From Lentilactobacillus sunkii DSM 19904 (GTDB lineage Bacteria; Bacillota; Bacilli; Lactobacillales; Lactobacillaceae): 64,000 nucleotides of DNA. A program made the position numbers and the translations under genes. The notes below the pieces were generated by a model that saw only the letters and a program-made list of their open reading frames with translations, had not been told where the DNA came from and ran no database searches. Shown piece by piece: positions 15,631-35,344 of the stretch. The stretch covers positions 124,001-188,000 of the forward strand of contig NZ_AZEA01000002.1 in assembly GCF_001435575.1 (NCBI RefSeq), in the 5' to 3' direction. Within the stretch, counting starts at the first letter, position 1. Each line of letters opens with the position of its first letter.

Positions 15631-16281
15631 TCAATCGACCTTCTTATAGTGAGCAGCTTCCTTCGCATCAAACCCGGCTTCCCGTAACTTGGAAGCAACC
15701 GAGACCCCATCTTCTTTATCGACATGGATTTCAACAACCTTGGTGGTCCCTTGGTGGGTGACCATTAACGTCTGAATATTTAAATCATTTTCAGCCATTA
15801 TCTTGCCAATATCAAAAATTACTCCCGGCCGATCCTTTGGAATAAAGACCTGAACCACCGTGCCATCCTCGTTATAATCGGTGACGTCCAAGAACGCATC
15901 CAAAATATCGTTGTTGGTAATGATCCCGACAACATCCCCCTGATCGGTCACCGGCAAGACACCCACTTGATACTTTCTCATTTCATAAATGGCGTCTTCC
16001 AGAAAGTCATCTGCCTCGATGGTCCGAACCGTTGTCTCCATCACTTCTTTGACGGTCATTTTGTTCAATAAGTAGTTATATTCATAAATTGATAAACTTG
16101 TCGCTTTGGATGGTGAAGCCGCCTCAACGGTGCCTTGAGTGACCAGACCAACTAACTGTCCGTCACTAATCACCGGTAATCGGTGAATGTTATTTTCTTT
16201 CATCATATTCACCGCCACACTGACCTTGGTCTCGGGCGGCACGGTGATGACGTTGGTGGACATAAAATCTCTTACACTCAT
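15631..16281 (-). CDS. CBS-CBS-ACT regulatory protein (AcuB-like), last gene of the liv operon
   Basis: A 216-residue cytoplasmic protein with two CBS repeats (about 7-58 and 75-130; DFMSTNVITVPPET, LPVISDGQLVGLVT, GVLPVTDQGDVVGIIT) and a C-terminal ACT domain (about 141-205; DRPGVIFDIGKIMAENDLN). CBS pairs bind adenine nucleotides and ACT domains bind amino acids. It starts 2 bp after livF, behind GGGAGG, so it is translated with the transporter. The likely role is sensing amino acid and/or energy status to modulate transport or metabolism. That function is inferred; the family (AcuB-like) has no firm biochemical assignment. Confidence 0.85.
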   Translation of the reverse strand: MSVRDFMSTNVITVPPETKVSVAVNMMKENNIHRLPVISDGQLVGLVTQGTVEAASPSKATSLSIYEYNYLLNKMTVKEVMETTVRTIEADDFLEDAIYEMRKYQVGVLPVTDQGDVVGIITNNDILDAFLDVTDYNEDGTVVQVFIPKDRPGVIFDIGKIMAENDLNIQTLMVTHQGTTKVVEIHVDKEDGVSVASKLREAGFDAKEAAHYKKVD

Positions 16282-16283
16282 TT

Positions 16284-16991
16284 TTAACCTCCCAAATATG
16301 CCTTTTGGACATCTTTATTTGCCAGCAGCTCGTCGCCTGTACCGGTCATTTGGATCTTGCCGGTCGCTAAAACATACCCGCGATCAGCGATGGACAAAGC
16401 CTTTTTGGCGTTTTGCTCAATTAGTAGAACTGTTGTCCCCTGTTTGTTGATTTCTTTAATGATGTCAAAAATTTCATTGATAAAGATTGGTGCTAACCCC
16501 ATGGATGGCTCGTCAAGCAAAATTAATTTCGGATTGGCCATCAATGCCCGGCCCATGGCAAGCATCTGCTGTTCACCACCGGATAATGTCGCGGCATCTT
16601 GATTCTTCCGCTGTTTCAAGATCGGAAATCGTTCAAAGACTTCATCAAAGTTTTGCTTAATCTTCGCCCGATCCTTCACCAGAAATGAGCCCATTTGAAG
16701 GTTCTCCATAACCGTCAAGCCGGCGAAAATGTGGCGGCCTTCAGGCACCTGTGAGATTCCATCCGCAACTACTTTCGGCGCAGACTTGGATTGAATTTCC
16801 TGATCCTCATAGGTAATCTTGCCGCTTTTGGGTCTCAACAATCCGGAAATTGTCTTTAGAATGGTAGATTTTCCGGCCCCGTTTGCGCCAATCAACGAAA
16901 CAATTTCACCTTCGTTAATATTGAAGCTGACGCCTTTCACAGCGTTGATCACACCATAATTTACAAATAAATCATCGACTGTCAATAACAT
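16284..16991 (-). CDS. livF: Branched-chain amino acid ABC transporter ATP-binding protein LivF
   Basis: A 235-residue ABC ATPase. Walker A is GANGAGKST (about 36-44), the signature is LSGGEQQMLAMGRAL, Walker B is LILLDEPSMGL with the LivF-typical GLAPIFINEIF, and the H-loop position reads LLIEQN as expected for LivF. It starts behind GGAGG, 3 bp after livG. With LivG it powers the LivHM permease for Leu/Ile/Val or related hydrophobic amino acids. Confidence 0.93.
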   Translation of the reverse strand: MLLTVDDLFVNYGVINAVKGVSFNINEGEIVSLIGANGAGKSTILKTISGLLRPKSGKITYEDQEIQSKSAPKVVADGISQVPEGRHIFAGLTVMENLQMGSFLVKDRAKIKQNFDEVFERFPILKQRKNQDAATLSGGEQQMLAMGRALMANPKLILLDEPSMGLAPIFINEIFDIIKEINKQGTTVLLIEQNAKKALSIADRGYVLATGKIQMTGTGDELLANKDVQKAYLGG

Positions 16992-16994
16992 GGG

Positions 16995-17777
16995 TCAATC
17001 CACCTCCTCGCCAAGATAGGCTTTGATAACTGCCGGGTTCGATTGAATTTCGGCAGGCGTTCCCTTGGCCAGTAATGAGCCATGATCCAGAACGTAAATT
17101 CTTTGTGCCAAATTCATGACCAGCGACATGTCATGCTCGATCAACAAGATTGTGATGTGAAACTTTCGTTGAACCTTAATGATCAACTGCGTTAGTTCGG
17201 CTGTTTCCTCAGGGTTCATCCCAGCTGCCGGTTCATCCAAGAATAGAATTTGCGGTTCGGTTGCCAAAGCTCTGACAATTTCCAGCTTTCGTTGCGTCCC
17301 ATAAGGCAGATTCTTCGCGAGAACATCAGTATCATTCTCCAATTCAAAGATTTCAAGCAGCTGTTTGGCCTTTTCAGCCAGCTGTTTTTCAGTCTTGTAA
17401 TAACTTGGAAACCGAAAGATGGTGGGGATGAAGCCTTCTTTGACTTTACTGGTCATGGCAATTAAAACATTCTCCATAACCGTCAAGTCCTTGAACAAAC
17501 GAATATTTTGAAACGTTCGCGACAACCCCATCTTGGCAATCGTATAAGCGGGTTTGCCATTTAACGGATAGGTCCCACTGTCGCTATTGAGTACGATTGA
17601 CCCAGAAGATACCGGAATCACCCCAGTCAGCAAGTTAAACAGCGTCGTCTTGCCGGCACCGTTTGGACCAATCAGCGCTACTAATTCATTGGTATCCAGG
17701 TGCATGGAAACATTTGATACAGCAGTCAATCCGCTAAAGTTTTTAACCACGTTATCCACTTTCAAAAGCGTCCTCAT
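16995..17777 (-). CDS. livG: Branched-chain amino acid ABC transporter ATP-binding protein LivG
   Basis: A 260-residue ABC ATPase: Walker A GPNGAGKTT (about 37-45), a LivG-type insert with GLSRTFQNIRLF, signature LPYGTQRKLEIVRAL (YG instead of SG, usual for LivG), Walker B ILFLDEPAAGMNPEE, and H-loop LLIEHDM. Its ATG overlaps the livM stop as ATGA, so the two are translationally coupled. Confidence 0.93.
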   Translation of the reverse strand: MRTLLKVDNVVKNFSGLTAVSNVSMHLDTNELVALIGPNGAGKTTLFNLLTGVIPVSSGSIVLNSDSGTYPLNGKPAYTIAKMGLSRTFQNIRLFKDLTVMENVLIAMTSKVKEGFIPTIFRFPSYYKTEKQLAEKAKQLLEIFELENDTDVLAKNLPYGTQRKLEIVRALATEPQILFLDEPAAGMNPEETAELTQLIIKVQRKFHITILLIEHDMSLVMNLAQRIYVLDHGSLLAKGTPAEIQSNPAVIKAYLGEEVD

Positions 17778-18733
17778 GATTCAACACGCTCCTTTCGTTT
17801 GGATCGGCTGAACAGCCGCTTAACCGAGAACTCCCAAGTTCCAAGGAGTCCGGATGGTTTGAAGATCATGATCATGACCAACGCAATCGCGTAAATCACC
17901 ATCCGCAGAGCACCGAAGTTCTGAAGCACCGTATCCAGCACCCCAAGGACAACTGCGGCCACAAACGTGCCGGTGATACTGCCGACACCGCCAAGGACGA
18001 CGATGATCAGAATCGAAATTGATTCCATGATGCCAAAGTCGTTGGGGGCAATTGTCTGCAGGTATGAAGCGTGAAGCGAACCAGCCACTGCGGCAGTCGA
18101 TGCCCCCAGGACGAAGGCGGCGAGTTTCCATTTGGTGATGTTAATCCCCATAGCTTCAGCGGCAATCTCATCTTCACGAACTGATTTAACTGCCCGGCCG
18201 GCCCGACTATGGATAAAGTTGACGATGATAATGGTAGTTAGACAAACCATGATGTAGACGGTCGGCCAGTCGGCAAATTGGGGAATGTTGAACATCCCGG
18301 CAGCCCCACCCGTCATCTTCAGGTTATTAATAATAATCCGGATGATTTCAGAAGCCCCCATGGTCGCGATGGCCAAATAGTCACCCCGAAGTCGCAAGGT
18401 TGGAATTCCAACGATTAGTGCAGCAATGATTGAAACGATAATGCCAATAAAGATTGAAGCATAGAATCCGACTGGTGAACTGGCAGTTTGGGTCACAATT
18501 GCGGTCGCATAGGCCCCAATCGCCATGAAGCCGGCATGCCCCAGTGAGAACTGACCGGCAAATCCAATAATCAGGTTCAACCCGGTTGCCAGAATGATGT
18601 TAATCCCGATGGTCACCAGCATGTTGGCAATGAATGAGTCGATCACCCCGACGAGAATCAGTGTATTGATGAGATAAAAGCCGGCAATCATCACGATCAG
18701 CCAAATCAAGTTGTATTTAAAATTTGCTTTCAA
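17774..18733 (-). CDS. livM: Branched-chain amino acid ABC transporter permease LivM
   Basis: A 319-residue multi-spanning permease with the LivM features GLNLIIGFAGQFSLGHAGFMAIGAY (about 52-76) and the EAA-like cytoplasmic loop (SVREDEIAAEAMGINITKWK). The start is TTG at 18733 after AGGTG. It overlaps livG by 4 bp and follows livH by 10 bp. Confidence 0.92.
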   Translation of the reverse strand: MKANFKYNLIWLIVMIAGFYLINTLILVGVIDSFIANMLVTIGINIILATGLNLIIGFAGQFSLGHAGFMAIGAYATAIVTQTASSPVGFYASIFIGIIVSIIAALIVGIPTLRLRGDYLAIATMGASEIIRIIINNLKMTGGAAGMFNIPQFADWPTVYIMVCLTTIIIVNFIHSRAGRAVKSVREDEIAAEAMGINITKWKLAAFVLGASTAAVAGSLHASYLQTIAPNDFGIMESISILIIVVLGGVGSITGTFVAAVVLGVLDTVLQNFGALRMVIYAIALVMIMIFKPSGLLGTWEFSVKRLFSRSKRKERVES

Positions 18734-18743
18734 ATGTGATCAC

Positions 18744-19622
18744 CTACACTTTTTCTTTTGTATTCTTGCCAAATATTCCAGCTGGCAGAATCAGGAGAAT
18801 GACGATCAAGACGAAGTAAACCACTGCGTCTTTGTATGCTGACAAGCCAATTGACTGAACGAATGTCTCCAGGATTCCGATGATAAAGCCACCGACAGAT
18901 GCGCCGGGAACCGAACCGATGCCTCCAAGAACCGCTGCCACAAAGGCCTTGATTCCGGGTGTCATCCCCATAAGTGGGTCAATCGAGTTATAGTACAGCC
19001 CAATCAATACGCCGGCTGCCCCTGCCAAGGAGGAACCCAAGGCAAAGGTGAACGAAATGGTCCAATTGATGTTGATACCAACCAGTTCTGCGGCGTCGGC
19101 ATCAACTGATACCGCCCGCATGGCCCGGCCCATCTTGGTCTTCTTAATAATCAATTGAAGTAAAATCATCAAAATACAAGAAGTGGCCAGAATGAGAATT
19201 TGAATATTTGAAATTTGGACCCCGCCGAGATGATAGTTCACCTGCTTAATAATTTGCGGGAAATCCCGGGTATTTGACGTAAACAGGTATGACATCCCAT
19301 TTTCAAGCAGAAATGAGACGCCAATTGCAGTGATCAACGCGGTAATTCGTGGTGAATGGCGGAGCGGCCGGTACGCAAAGTACTCGATGATTACCCCGCT
19401 GGCGGCTCCTACCAACATGGCAGAAAGCAGTGCGCTGATGAAGTTGAAGTGCCACACGTTGATCACGTAGTACCCCCAGAAGGCGCCCAGCATGTAGATG
19501 TCGCCGTGGGCAAAGTTGATCAGCTTAATGATGCCGTAAACCATGGTGTACCCGAGAGCAAGTAATGCGTATATGCTTCCTAATGAAAGCCCGTTGATGA
19601 TCTGCTGAAAAAATGTTTGCAC
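18744..19622 (-). CDS. livH: Branched-chain amino acid ABC transporter permease LivH
   Basis: A 292-residue permease: LGSIYALLALGYTMVYGI and INFAHGDIYMLGAF near the N-terminus and the conserved loop RAVSVDADAAELVGININ are diagnostic of LivH. The start is GTG at 19622 behind GAGAGGAG. It is separated from livJ by about 250 bp that contain a very long inverted repeat and a G-depleted leader, so its expression relative to livJ is probably set there. Confidence 0.92.
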   Translation of the reverse strand: MQTFFQQIINGLSLGSIYALLALGYTMVYGIIKLINFAHGDIYMLGAFWGYYVINVWHFNFISALLSAMLVGAASGVIIEYFAYRPLRHSPRITALITAIGVSFLLENGMSYLFTSNTRDFPQIIKQVNYHLGGVQISNIQILILATSCILMILLQLIIKKTKMGRAMRAVSVDADAAELVGININWTISFTFALGSSLAGAAGVLIGLYYNSIDPLMGMTPGIKAFVAAVLGGIGSVPGASVGGFIIGILETFVQSIGLSAYKDAVVYFVLIVILLILPAGIFGKNTKEKV

Positions 19623-19873: not shown

Positions 19874-21070
19874 CTATTTCACATTAAACGACTCACTAAC
19901 CTTCCCCTTGGTCAGCTCTTCAATCGCAATCGGCTTCTCCGGGTTATGTTCCTTGTCCATTGTGATATTCCCGGTAACGCCGTCGAAGTTCTTGATCTTT
20001 GCCAAGCCCTTTGCGATTTTTACTGAATCTGCTGATTTTTCATTTTCAATTGCCTGCTTGATCATGTATACCGAATCGTATGCCAATGCTGAGAAGGTTG
20101 GTGCGTCCTGGTTATACTTTGCCTTGTACTTATTCATGAACTTCACAGCGGTTGGGTTTGCCTTCGCTACATCGTCCGAGAATGGGGTTGTGTAGTAAAT
20201 CTTTGAGGCATTGTTGTTACCAGCGATTTGAGCCAGCTTAGGATCAGCCATTCCATCACTACCAACGATTGGCACATTGATGCCGGCTTGACGGGCCTGC
20301 TTGATGATCAAACCAATTTCTGTGTAATAACCCGGTGCGTAAATGGCATCAATTTTCTTTGATTTAAATGATGTCAAGACTGCATTGAAATCTTTGTCGC
20401 CAGCCGTGAAGAATTGGCTGTCAACGACTTTACCGGTGTAGGCTTTCTTAAATGCTTTTGCCAATCCGGTTCCATAATCACTTGAGTTGTCAGCATATAC
20501 GGCAACCCGCTTAGCCTTCAAGGTGTTGGTCATAAACTTGGCAGCTGTTGCGCCTTGGAAATTGTTTTGGTAACAAGCTCTAAATACATATGGCTGAACT
20601 TTGCCGTTCTTCTTGAGCGTGTATGCCGGATCAGTCGCTGATGGACTGACACTCGGCACGGCTGCTTTGGTGATATTTGGAATTTCAGCGGTTCCGGCGT
20701 TGGTGGTTGCAGGGCCGACAATTGCGACCACTTTATCGTTGTTGGTCAACTGAGCGGCAACCGATGCTGATGTGTTGTTGGAAGTCTTGTTATCCCGAAT
20801 CACCAGCTTGATCTTTTTCTTCTTGCCGTTGACGTTGATGCCGCCATCTTTGTTAATTTCAGATGCAGCTAATTGAATCCCCTGCTTTTGTGATTGGCCA
20901 TAGCCGGCAGCTGCGCCGGAAAGTTCCATGTTGACACCAATCTTGATCGTGTTTCCAGTTGTTTGATTTCCCTTGGTCGTTGTCTTGGCGGTACTACATC
21001 CGGCAAAAACCCCTGCGGTCATTACAATTGCGGCCATGCTGACAACTTTTTTCATCGTGCTCTTCTTCAT
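19874..21070 (-). CDS. livJ: Branched-chain amino acid-binding lipoprotein LivJ
   Basis: A 398-residue substrate-binding lipoprotein, first transporter gene of the operon. The signal sequence ends in a lipobox, VFAGC (Cys about 25). The mature part is a type I periplasmic-binding fold of the Leu/Ile/Val family: IKIGVNMELSGAAAGYGQSQ, AIVGPATTNAG, SVSPSATDPAYT and VAVYADNSSDYG. It delivers branched-chain or related amino acids to LivHM at the outer face of the membrane. It lies downstream of a candidate attenuator, and TTGAAG/TACATA around 21083-21112 could give a second, internal promoter. A long hairpin after the stop may protect its mRNA and favour LivJ over the permease. Confidence 0.92.
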   Translation of the reverse strand: MKKSTMKKVVSMAAIVMTAGVFAGCSTAKTTTKGNQTTGNTIKIGVNMELSGAAAGYGQSQKQGIQLAASEINKDGGINVNGKKKKIKLVIRDNKTSNNTSASVAAQLTNNDKVVAIVGPATTNAGTAEIPNITKAAVPSVSPSATDPAYTLKKNGKVQPYVFRACYQNNFQGATAAKFMTNTLKAKRVAVYADNSSDYGTGLAKAFKKAYTGKVVDSQFFTAGDKDFNAVLTSFKSKKIDAIYAPGYYTEIGLIIKQARQAGINVPIVGSDGMADPKLAQIAGNNNASKIYYTTPFSDDVAKANPTAVKFMNKYKAKYNQDAPTFSALAYDSVYMIKQAIENEKSADSVKIAKGLAKIKNFDGVTGNITMDKEHNPEKPIAIEELTKGKVSESFNVK

Positions 21071-21164
21071 AAAATCTACCCACTTTCAATTTGTATGTAT
21101 TTTGTCTAACTGCGAACTTCAATCATTTGGATCAGGTAACACCGATAAGCATCCCTCCTTGGGC

Positions 21165-21247
21165 AAATAAAAAACCTCATTCTTTAATGAATGAGGTTTT
21201 GAATCTGGATGTATCAAGCCCTCATCATTAAAAACGAAATAAGGGCT
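21165..21247 (-). promoter_or_regulatory. Candidate transcription attenuator: terminator and competing antiterminator ahead of livJ
   Basis: Minus-strand RNA contains three elements after the leader peptide stop. Hairpin 1 pairs AGCCCT (21247-21242) with AGGGCT (21222-21217). A terminator pairs GAATGAGGTTTT with AAAACCTCATTC (21189-21200 and 21171-21182), with a T-rich tail TTTTTTATTT. The 3' arm of hairpin 1, TAATGATGAGG (21230-21220), can instead pair with CCTCATTCATTA (21196-21185), the 5' arm of the terminator, leaving one bulge. These structures are mutually exclusive, as in peptide-coupled attenuation. Confidence 0.6.
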
Positions 21248-21277
21248 CAACTTGTATGATTGCCTGGTAGCTATTCA

Positions 21278-21382
21278 CTACTTCGGAATCAATGTCGGGT
21301 CCTTGATTTTTAATAATAAGGCTAAATCCTGGTTGAAAGATGGTGCCACTCGGTTGTTAATAATTGAATTAATAAGTTTCAT
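21278..21382 (-). CDS. 34-residue Leu/Ile/Val-rich leader peptide of the liv operon
   Basis: A short ORF of 34 codons with an excellent ribosome site (GGAGG, 8 nt before ATG at 21382), about 30 nt downstream of the predicted transcription start. The sequence begins MKLINSIINNRVAPSF and ends NQDLALLLKIKDPTLIPK. Twelve of 34 residues are Leu, Ile or Val, including a run ALLLKI near the middle. It is followed by the competing hairpins described separately and then livJ. It is too short for the usual gene-calling cutoff. It could alternatively be an independent small protein that uses the downstream terminator. Confidence 0.6.
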   Translation of the reverse strand: MKLINSIINNRVAPSFNQDLALLLKIKDPTLIPK

Positions 21383-21421
21383 GACGCCGTCCTCCGTTTC
21401 CAAAATTTTATTATGAGTAGA

Positions 21422-21450
21422 ACTATAATTTAGTTTTCATATTCTGTCAA
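21422..21450 (-). promoter_or_regulatory. Strong sigma-A promoter of the liv leader and operon
   Basis: On the minus strand a perfect -35 TTGACA (21450-21445), a 17-nt spacer and -10 TATAGT (21427-21422). The predicted start is near 21414, giving a leader of about 340 nt before livJ. Confidence 0.8.
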
Positions 21451-30704: not shown

Positions 30705-30975
30705 ATCAAAAAAGCGCTCCTGTATCAATACAGAAGCGCAAAAACGCGGTACCATTCTGAGTTCATCTCATTAGTTGCCTAACAAGATCTCAATTACCAT
30801 CTCAAATTGAAATGGCAAGTCGCATAACGAGGACTACCCGTCTGTCATTTTCATTGACGATCATGACAGCCAATCATCGGCCATTTTCGTTTTCAAACAA
30901 AGATCGGCTTTCATCAACTGCCGACTCTCTGGACAATGTTTGCAAACTACTTTCCGAATCAAATTGTTTCATCAT
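30705..30975 (-). promoter_or_regulatory. T-box riboswitch, Met specifier, controlling metNIQ
   Basis: The minus strand carries the T-box sequence AATGGTACCGCG (about 30755-30744) followed by a terminator (AAGCGCTCCTGTA with TACAGAAGCGC, 30711-30738, T-rich tail). Upstream is a stem I with the AGAGAG motif (about 30930-30924) and GAAAATGGCC, whose ATG (30884-30882) sits at the specifier position. Uncharged tRNA-Met would promote antitermination. Confidence 0.87.
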
Positions 30976-32127: not shown

Positions 32128-32417
32128 CGAATAAAAAAGTCCTCATACAGGATTTACCTGTACAAGGACGAAATTGTCGTGTTACCACCTTAGTTTTCAC
32201 GCAGTTCACACTGCATGACTCATAGAGTGCTCAAGCAGATGCTCGAATACTCCAACGCGATAAGGTGCGTTCGCCATGCCGGCTTACTGAAGCTCGCCAA
32301 CATTTACTCAAAGACCATATTCACCGACTCCCAGCAGTTCACTTTCACCAAACGTGAACTCTCTAAGTGCTGTTTGTCGCCTACTCATCTTTTCACTGCT
32401 TTTGTTTATCAATTTAA
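32128..32417 (-). promoter_or_regulatory. T-box riboswitch, Met specifier, controlling the MetE-like gene
   Basis: The minus strand has AAGGTGGTAACACG (T-box sequence, about 32192-32179), a terminator formed by GTCCTTGTACAGG and CCTGTATGAGGAC with TTTTTTATT, and a stem I with AGAGAG and GGTGAA. The specifier loop GAATATGGTC contains ATG at 32318-32316. Confidence 0.87.
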
Positions 32418-34258: not shown

Positions 34259-35011
34259 TTAATTCATAGTCAATCCGCCGTCCACTGTCACATTCTGTCC
34301 GGTCAACCCACTACCTGCATCCGATCCTAGAAAAGCAACTGTTTTAGCGACGTCTTCAGGGGTCGTCACTTTCCTTAGTGGTGTACTATCCTGAATCATT
34401 TTAAAGACTTCCGGCGTAGTGACTGCACTGGCATCCGTCATCTTGAGCAAACCACCCGATACCACGTTCACGGTAATGCCATACTGGCCCAATTCCACAG
34501 CTAGATTCCGTGAAAAACCAATGAGTGCCGCTTTGGCGGTTGTGTATTGATGATAGGCCACCACTGGGTTTTGATAAAGATTGGTACCAATGCTGACAAT
34601 CTGACCACTATGCTGTTTCTTCATTGTTGGTAGTGCACTTTGAATCACATTGAACGCACCTTTAAGGGTTCCGTCCAGTTGGGCTTGATAGTCATCCCAA
34701 GTTAAATCAGCAAATTCCTGCTGCGCAACGGGATCAAATTTGAATCCGACCAACGCATTGTTGACCACTGTATCAATCGATCCAAACTTATCTAGTGCCT
34801 GCTGAATCATTCGATCGACTTCTTGGCGGTTGCGAACATCCGCTTGAATCGCAACGGCATGATCAGACCCAATCTTGGCAACAACCTGCTCTGCTAAATC
34901 CTGGCTGTGGAAATAGTTGACCACATCGTTGTAACCAAGTTTTGAAAACTGAACCGCAATTTGTGCACCTAACCCACGACTTGCACCGGTAATTAATACT
35001 GTCTTCGACAT
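34259..35011 (-). CDS. Short-chain dehydrogenase/reductase (FabG-like), downstream of a TPP riboswitch
   Basis: A 250-residue classical SDR: TGASRGLGAQIA cofactor loop (about 9-20), VNNALVGF, catalytic Ser in SIGTN and YTTAK (YxxxK), and an N-terminal Rossmann fold that fits NAD(P)H. The start is at 35011 because TTTGGAGGT precedes it. FabG-type reductases are one option, but the gene is isolated from fatty-acid genes. The only visible control element is the TPP riboswitch and terminator 70-235 bp upstream on the same strand, so its substrate may be tied to thiamine or pyrimidine metabolism. That is inference; the true physiological substrate is unknown. Confidence 0.87.
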   Translation of the reverse strand: MSKTVLITGASRGLGAQIAVQFSKLGYNDVVNYFHSQDLAEQVVAKIGSDHAVAIQADVRNRQEVDRMIQQALDKFGSIDTVVNNALVGFKFDPVAQQEFADLTWDDYQAQLDGTLKGAFNVIQSALPTMKKQHSGQIVSIGTNLYQNPVVAYHQYTTAKAALIGFSRNLAVELGQYGITVNVVSGGLLKMTDASAVTTPEVFKMIQDSTPLRKVTTPEDVAKTVAFLGSDAGSGLTGQNVTVDGGLTMN

Positions 35012-35080
35012 GTTGAATACCTCCAAATGATATTAGAATGACTACCGCTTTTTCATTAATCACAAGGAACCCATAAGCAC

Positions 35081-35114: not shown

Positions 35115-35154
35115 AAAAACAGGATTTTAATAAAGATTTTCTCCAGTAATATTA

Positions 35155-35247
35155 GTTGCATTCCTACGCTGGTACTAACCAGATCAGGTAAAAAGGGTCT
35201 AAGATTGCAATGCAATCTAATCTCAGCACAATGGCTCCCCTTGCAGT
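35155..35247 (-). promoter_or_regulatory. TPP (THI-box) riboswitch
   Basis: The minus strand carries the conserved TPP aptamer words in order: AGGGGAGCC, GCTGAGATT, then a variable P3 stem, AGACCC, ACCTGATCTGG and CCAGCGTAGGAATGC. P1 pairs TGCA with TGCA. A terminator hairpin follows at 35081-35114, typical for TPP-dependent premature termination. Confidence 0.92.
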
Positions 35248-35344
35248 TAATTTAAGCAACTAGATTATAACAGAAAATGATGATAGTTACTTCAAATACT
35301 CTTACTTGTTATTTGTCGATCCAAAAATGTTAACCACCCACAAA

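Follow-up and report, generated by a model that had tools for sequence, protein, structure and literature searches.

On its minus strand, the window (the whole stretch of 64,000 nucleotides analysed here) carries a leader upstream of livJHMGF that probably (probability about 0.85) brings about ribosome-mediated transcription attenuation of these genes by leucine supply. Leader-peptide attenuation of liv had been proposed from the sequence of the window alone, and it is the best-supported reading after comparison with relatives, in which leader codons are conserved and compensatory base changes are found. The mechanism is a known one; the target class, an importer, appears to be new, and the wider attenuator family described below is apparently undescribed.

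Anatomy of the leader upstream of livJHMGF

The features of the locus, as located in silico, are listed in the order of transcription.

21422..21450 (-), sigma-70-type promoter TTGACA-17-TATAGT, 11 of 12 matches in the consensus scan
21391..21395 (-), leader ribosome site GGAGG, 8 nt 5′ of the leader ATG
21278..21382 (-), leader-peptide ORF MKLINSIINNRVAPSFNQDLALLLKIKDPTLIPK, 34 codons and a stop codon, with homologous leaders in relatives
21311..21319 (-), control codons TTA-TTA-TTA (Leu-Leu-Leu), the Leu triplet being present in 46/46 aligned and 13/15 further copies
21306..21326 (-), segment A over the Leu codons, partner C (fold, covariation, partner swapping)
21294..21302 (-), segment A′ (GGACCCGAC), partner B (covariation, partner swapping)
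21239..21251 (-), segment B, partner A′ or C (covariation, partner swapping, consensus fold of the leuABCD class)
21213..21235 (-), segment C, the hub, partners A, B or D5 (covariation, partner swapping)
21165..21200 (-), intrinsic terminator, arms D5 (21189-21200) and D3 (21171-21182) and a T tail
21079..21087 (-), likely livJ ribosome site GAAAGTGGG, from sequence
19874..21070 (-), livJ, BCAA-type (branched-chain amino acid) substrate-binding protein
18744..19622 (-), livH, permease
17774..18733 (-), livM, permease
16995..17777 (-), livG, ATPase
16284..16991 (-), livF, ATPase

The sequence-only reading had named a consensus promoter, a 34-codon ORF with a good ribosome site and 12 Leu, Ile or Val residues (a number that we reproduced by hand), a hairpin, a T-tailed terminator and then livJ, and all of these were located. 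Among 46 relatives, 38 have a promoter-like site with at least 10 of 12 matches 5′ of the leader, versus 7.7% of shuffled stretches. The folding energy of the 250-nt leader is -69.2 kcal/mol (z = -5.74), a stability equalled by 0/200 shuffles, and the terminator stem (21200-21171) has 12 pairs followed by the T tail. Pairing of the 3′ arm of hairpin 1 with the 5′ arm of the terminator, also predicted earlier, is supported in silico: segment C can form a duplex of -20.0 kcal/mol with the terminator 5′ arm and loop, and C:D5 covaries in relatives. A second promoter suspected near 21083-21112 had no minus-strand site in the consensus scan, and the place overlaps the likely livJ ribosome site. The locus as a whole has the parts of a leader-peptide attenuator, namely a short translated-looking ORF with a ribosome site a little 3′ of a promoter, a conserved run of control codons for the regulated amino acid, and, in silico, mutually exclusive antiterminator and terminator structures with the terminator before the first gene.

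The leader is single-copy in its own genome, the remaining matches being weak or the reverse strand of the terminator. leuB, ilvD and CodY gave no match in the same assembly (99.78% complete as listed), with controls behaving as expected, and judged by this gene content the source organism is an apparent auxotroph. Given that the three genes were not detected, a leucine-sensing importer switch would suit the need of such an organism. CodY control was rejected; the CodY gene was not found, and the window holds 12 CodY-box-like matches versus 9.3 expected, none of them near the leader. Closely 3′ of livF lies a gene (15631-16281, minus strand) whose product combines CBS and ACT domains and might regulate the importer by binding amino acids.

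In Firmicutes, numerous amino-acid genes are under T-box control (PMC2494555, as far as the excerpt goes), and two T-boxes are present elsewhere in the window; both points favour a T-box, or another RNA sensor that works without translation, at the leader as well. We regard this as highly improbable, since no Rfam family matched the leader at threshold, the best match at a lax threshold had E = 1.3, and a run of codons underlies the conserved structure. Riboswitches and known leader families were rejected for the window leader by the same scans. Attenuation had earlier been considered an oddity for such an operon, T-boxes being the usual solution, and this expectation did not hold: the 58 livJ loci that were scanned, out of 90, contained no T-box at the Rfam threshold, and leaders related to this one stand before many BCAA genes. 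The two T-boxes that the window does contain, at 32161-32405 and 30729-30971 on the minus strand, lie upstream of a Meth_synt_2 gene and of a set of MetNIQ-like ABC transporter genes and seem to serve methionine. A TPP riboswitch (35144-35251, minus strand) precedes a short-chain dehydrogenase gene (34259-35026), an unexpected neighbour.

Conservation of the leucine triplet and of the competing pairings

The element was recovered by DNA search in 12 of 24 genomes of the genus, source genome included. LivJ was found in 83 of 301 genomes of the family, and upstream stretches were collected for 90 of 97 LivJ matches, seven fragments, weak or second copies being omitted. Covariance model R1 matched 56 of these 90 livJ loci in the sense orientation at E ≤ 1e-5 (counted by hand from the table), corresponding to 41 training copies and 15 new ones. 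The aligned set of 46 copies was chosen with a substitution-only core pattern that contains the Leu run, duplicates per genome being skipped, and the 15 livJ copies found by the model only were left out of the covariation counts. An exact-pattern scan of titled genome contigs gave 46 loci, 43 in lactobacilli and three apparent chance matches; the latter, titled Opitutales, Woeseia and Thermococcaceae, had no leader and no real livJ match. The 43 were from Lentilactobacillus, Secundilactobacillus, Lactiplantibacillus (including L. plantarum), Levilactobacillus, Liquorilactobacillus, Pediococcus and Paucilactobacillus, with two titled Lactobacillus, and all 43 possessed an in-frame leader with a ribosome site. 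livJ comes next in 38 of them, and in the other five the examined stretch ends at most 340 nt further on. At five loci, a Ref68/Lacto-3 RNA was observed a few hundred bases 5′ of livJ (L062:522-626, L067:539-644, L069:702-810, L070:523-627 and L110:528-632).

All 46 aligned copies, chosen by a pattern that itself contains the run, have the Leu triplet, as three TTA (40 copies), three CTA (four) or three TTG (two), and none has a mixed run. LLL was also present in 13 of the 15 livJ copies recovered by the model only and in all 13 other livJ leaders read, while the other Leu, Ile and Val positions and the N-terminal part of the peptide drift among the 46 copies. The two exceptions, L057 (VLII) and L074 (LIII), are possible natural changes of the sensor. 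The importer family takes up all three branched-chain amino acids. This breadth of transport, the 12 Leu, Ile or Val residues among the 34 codons, the two mixed livJ leaders of 15 and the mixed leaders before ilvD and ilvB (see below) would fit a switch that senses isoleucine and valine as well as leucine. Such broader sensing is unlikely, as only LLL is conserved in the 46 copies, the remaining positions drift, and the modelled antiterminator is most probable with the ribosome on the run or immediately 5′ of it, rather than on the N-terminal Ile and Val codons. The earlier suggestion of Leu/Ile/Val sensing therefore stands for leucine, whose triplet is conserved, and is weakened for the other positions.

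A leader of this kind may also act through its peptide, as in TnaC, where a nascent peptide senses a ligand within the exit tunnel. The stretch LLLKxKDP looks conserved as peptide in many copies, which is what arrest of a TnaC-like nascent chain would predict, but the N-terminal halves of the peptides vary, and LLL stands directly before the stop codon in 32 of 33 leuA/leuB leaders. In L046 and L052, the loss of one base shifts the reading frame downstream of LLL, and the L071 leader ends with a stop codon after LLLSN; AGGACC and the next bases are nevertheless kept in the RNA of all three. These frame changes and the early stop indicate that the run and the RNA are conserved rather than the C-terminus of the peptide, and we give nascent-peptide arrest very little weight compared with stalling on the Leu codons.

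Covariation in alignment A1 supports A:C, which is embedded in the ORF, A′:B and the terminator, and the C:D5 antiterminator is supported by partner swapping as well. A:C, A′:B and D5:D3 together had 92.9% paired cells and double changes in 18 of 38 pairs; the 96 double-change cells compare with 22.1 in shuffles (0/500 as high), and sliding the partners by 1-3 columns lowered pairing to 33-55%. For C:D5, 84.0% of cells were paired and 28 cells had double changes versus 10.0 in shuffles (0/500 as high), although the number of pairs with double changes was 7 versus 5.1 in shuffles, 74 of 500 shuffles reaching 7. B:C had no double changes in the alignment columns of the 46-copy set; the leuABCD class has a consensus fold made up of B:C and the terminator. 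When partners were swapped between genera, the cognate duplex was stronger than the other-genus mean in 46 (A′:B), 45 (D5:D3), 43 (A:C), 41 (C:D5) and 39 (B:C) of 46 copies, against 9, 13, 15 and 21 of 46 for control combinations. Within-genus means exceeded between-genus means in 9 (A′:B), 9 (D5:D3), 8 (C:D5), 7 (A:C) and 7 (B:C) of nine genera, against 3, 4 and 3 for controls and 6 for the A′:C control; relatedness of the sequences inflates both the covariation and the partner-swap counts. The alignment of relatives that had been suggested as a check thus returned both a conserved Leu triplet and compensatory base changes. The competition between hairpins proposed earlier is supported in silico, but the switch has more parts, C having three rival partners in A, B and D5.

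Modelled ribosome positions and the proposed switch

In a first model, the transcript of each of the 46 copies was cut before D3 and the probability of the antiterminator (C:D5) was computed for successive ribosome positions. The mean was 0.13 for ribosome-free transcripts and 0.61-0.66 when the A site lay on the first Leu codon or anywhere 5′ of it as far as the codon preceding the conserved stretch; it fell to 0.51 on the second Leu, 0.29 on the third and 0.25 on the next codon, and was ≤ 0.17 beyond the codon after LLL, with a stop-codon value of 0.12. A second computation, in which the cut was moved slightly and four footprints were used, gave a mean maximum on LLL of 0.65-0.75, versus 0.22 without a ribosome and 0.19-0.22 at the stop codon. 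A ribosome on LLL raised C:D5 above both other states in 40-43 of 46 copies, failing to do so in 3 to 6, and the excess over both was > 0.3 in no more than 23-28 of them. When the full-length RNA is folded to equilibrium, the terminator wins in every case; the mechanism would therefore rest on the order of folding.

The copy in the window did not reproduce the off-state, the modelled antiterminator being 0.54-0.61 without a ribosome and 0.83-0.89 at the stop codon. This small predicted difference between states is what would be expected if leader and terminator were conserved without any response to amino acids, as an attenuator of fixed level with an incidental ORF. In-frame leaders, ribosome sites and the Leu triplet are maintained across genera, however, the codons of the run change synonymously in coordination, and the competing pairings covary, all of which makes a fixed-level attenuator distinctly improbable.

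The preferred reading, attenuation responding to leucine, can be put as follows. RNA polymerase would initiate at the promoter (21450-21422) and a ribosome on the leader ORF. When charged Leu-tRNA is scarce, the ribosome would stall on TTA-TTA-TTA and mask A, leaving A′ free to occupy B; with B occupied, C would be available for the newly made 5′ arm and loop of the terminator, and the resulting C:D5 antiterminator would let transcription continue into livJ. When leucine is ample, the ribosome would advance and mask A′, so that B is freed, pairs with C and allows the terminator to form; alternatively A, once uncovered, may re-pair with C with the same outcome. If no ribosome loads, A:C and A′:B would form one long hairpin and the terminator would follow (superattenuation).

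A probable wider attenuator family and its relation to known systems

At E ≤ 0.01, R1 gave matches in 129 of 397 Lactobacillaceae genomes and 43 of 395 genomes of the order, the matches near the limit including false ones. Sixty further loci were read, genes being assigned by reading with an HMM check of representatives. Thirty-three lie before leuA (23) or leuB (10), each with LLL, which directly precedes the stop codon in 32; 13 lie before livJ, all with LLL; two have Ile-run leaders. One leader precedes an oligopeptide-binding-protein gene (L197), and a mixed one precedes another amino-acid ABC transporter (L212). At L199:345-464, an ALLL leader with a terminator has no leu gene behind it; the first long ORF, about 250 nt on, encodes an MFS transporter, and this leader is possibly orphaned or captured. 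Nine loci were discarded for lack of a plausible leader (L209, L230, L233, L235, L239 and L253-L256). PF08502 was dropped as a test for leuA in favour of leuB, as the LeuA behind one leader has no dimer domain. That LeuA (L198:510-1670, 387 aa, behind a Leu leader) lacks the dimer (feedback) domain, and its control may rest on attenuation instead, as far as one protein can suggest.

A DNA search from one Ile leader gave matches in 13 of 76 genomes of its family; examples of the leaders are MFSLSQNIIIIIKSRA, upstream of liv genes, and MQLLSQQNIIIIINNRT, upstream of BCAT. A covariance model of 12 Ile-type leaders (R2) had matches at E ≤ 1e-4 in 86 of the 395 genomes of the order. In the 43 R2 loci read, where the candidate ORF was the one with the longest Leu/Ile/Val run as chosen by script, leaders precede BASS-type, BCAT, liv, BrnQ-type, ilvD and ilvB genes (HMM for single representatives, the rest by eye). 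Ile-run or mixed leaders of this kind, before liv, BASS, BCAT, ilvD and ilvB genes, occur in Lactobacillales families outside the Lactobacillaceae. Ile/Val-run leaders stand before BASS-family (PanS-like) transporter genes at L281, L283-L291, L313, L317 and L318 (with an HMM check of L281 only), a hint that these transporters take a branched-chain substrate.

The ribosome model was extended to both classes. In the leuABCD class (33 copies), C:D5 was 0.26 without a ribosome, 0.57 on the first Leu and 0.20 four codons further; it rose again to 0.35-0.72 well past the stop codon, at positions that a translating ribosome would not reach. Alignment A2 includes L199 and leaves out the divergent L205. 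In the Ile class (four-footprint computation only), it was 0.31 without a ribosome, 0.52-0.69 on the run and 0.02-0.04 at the stop codon, the run exceeding both other states in 9 of 10 copies, by > 0.3 in 4-6 of 10.

As judged from sequence models, kinship of the Leu and Ile classes is well supported from one neighbour to the next and weakly across the whole chain. R1 finds an Ile leader at 2.4e-5; R2 finds leuA leaders (4.8e-9 and 1.7e-8) and rli60 (1.2e-8), and the window copy only at 0.0093, near chance matches in the same table. Rfam scans identified rli60 at L303 (183.6 bits) and L306 (60.1 bits) and no family at the other eight loci scanned; over the leaders of 17 leu- and Ile-class loci no family was found, the sole match, a T-box in L216, lying elsewhere. 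We lean towards one homologous attenuator running through the Lactobacillales, in a sense that includes the genome bearing rli60, in which the codon run would have been exchanged and the RNA switch kept: LLL before livJ, leuA/leuB and the oligopeptide-binding-protein gene in Lactobacillaceae, Ile before liv, BASS, BCAT and BrnQ-type genes, and mixed Ile/Val/Leu runs before ilvD and ilvB, including rli60. An origin of the Ile class by frame shift (ATT versus TTA in one run) is not claimed, codon replacement fitting equally. This would be a large family of which the Rfam scans made match only the rli60 branch. The run seems exchangeable between Leu, Ile and mixtures, so that re-specification of the sensor can be tested by codon swaps, and the leaders suggest a way to predict the substrates of the transporters behind them. 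Translation-coupled attenuation would extend beyond biosynthesis to a BCAA importer, in lactobacilli possibly devoid of CodY and of genes for BCAA synthesis, as the source genome appears to be.

Among the matches listed from the open-licence literature, none concerned a leader attenuator of liv or of lactobacilli by its title or the start of its abstract. Attenuation of BCAA biosynthesis is named in Staphylococcus aureus, Listeria monocytogenes, Lactococcus lactis, Corynebacterium glutamicum and Streptococcus (PMC6123439, available excerpt), and Staphylococci, Listeria and several Streptococci are reported to lack T-box regulation of BCAA synthesis (PMC2494555, available excerpt). The nearest known system is rli60 (RF02414), the ilv-leu leader of Listeria, an experimentally supported ribosome-mediated attenuator according to the excerpted text of PMC5864092. 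Like the window leader, it has a short BCAA-rich ORF followed by competing antiterminator and terminator hairpins, and it is linked to the window family through covariance models, being recovered by the Ile-class model. It differs in standing before ilvD, in its 13-codon leader (MKTTKSVITILLL in L303) with mixed Ile and Leu codons, and in the four segments described there; the window gave no RF02414 match, and livJ, not ilvD, comes next.

The Leu/phe leader (RF01743) is of peptide-leader nature. It comes from the same order as the window's leader, with only Lactococcus lactis listed in the part of PMC2864571 at hand, and gave no match at the window leader. The leucine-rich attenuator peptide of the S. 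aureus ilv genes resembles the present leader in being Gram-positive, rich in leucine and tied to BCAA genes, but governs a biosynthesis operon alongside CodY; the likeness is at the level of description (PMC5794164, in its excerpted form). The leu and ilv attenuators of proteobacteria, likewise compared by description (PMC6123439, same excerpt), share the control codons, the stalled ribosome and the choice between antiterminator and terminator; they serve biosynthesis operons, whereas here the target is an importer and an extra segment places the control codons 5′ of A′. T-boxes (RF00230, without a match at the leader) likewise sense an amino acid by codon identity and control termination, but they bind tRNA without translation. 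If the homology proposed above is true, a single attenuator family would do through translation what the specifier codon does in T-boxes, and it may explain the BCAA operons reported to be without T-boxes.
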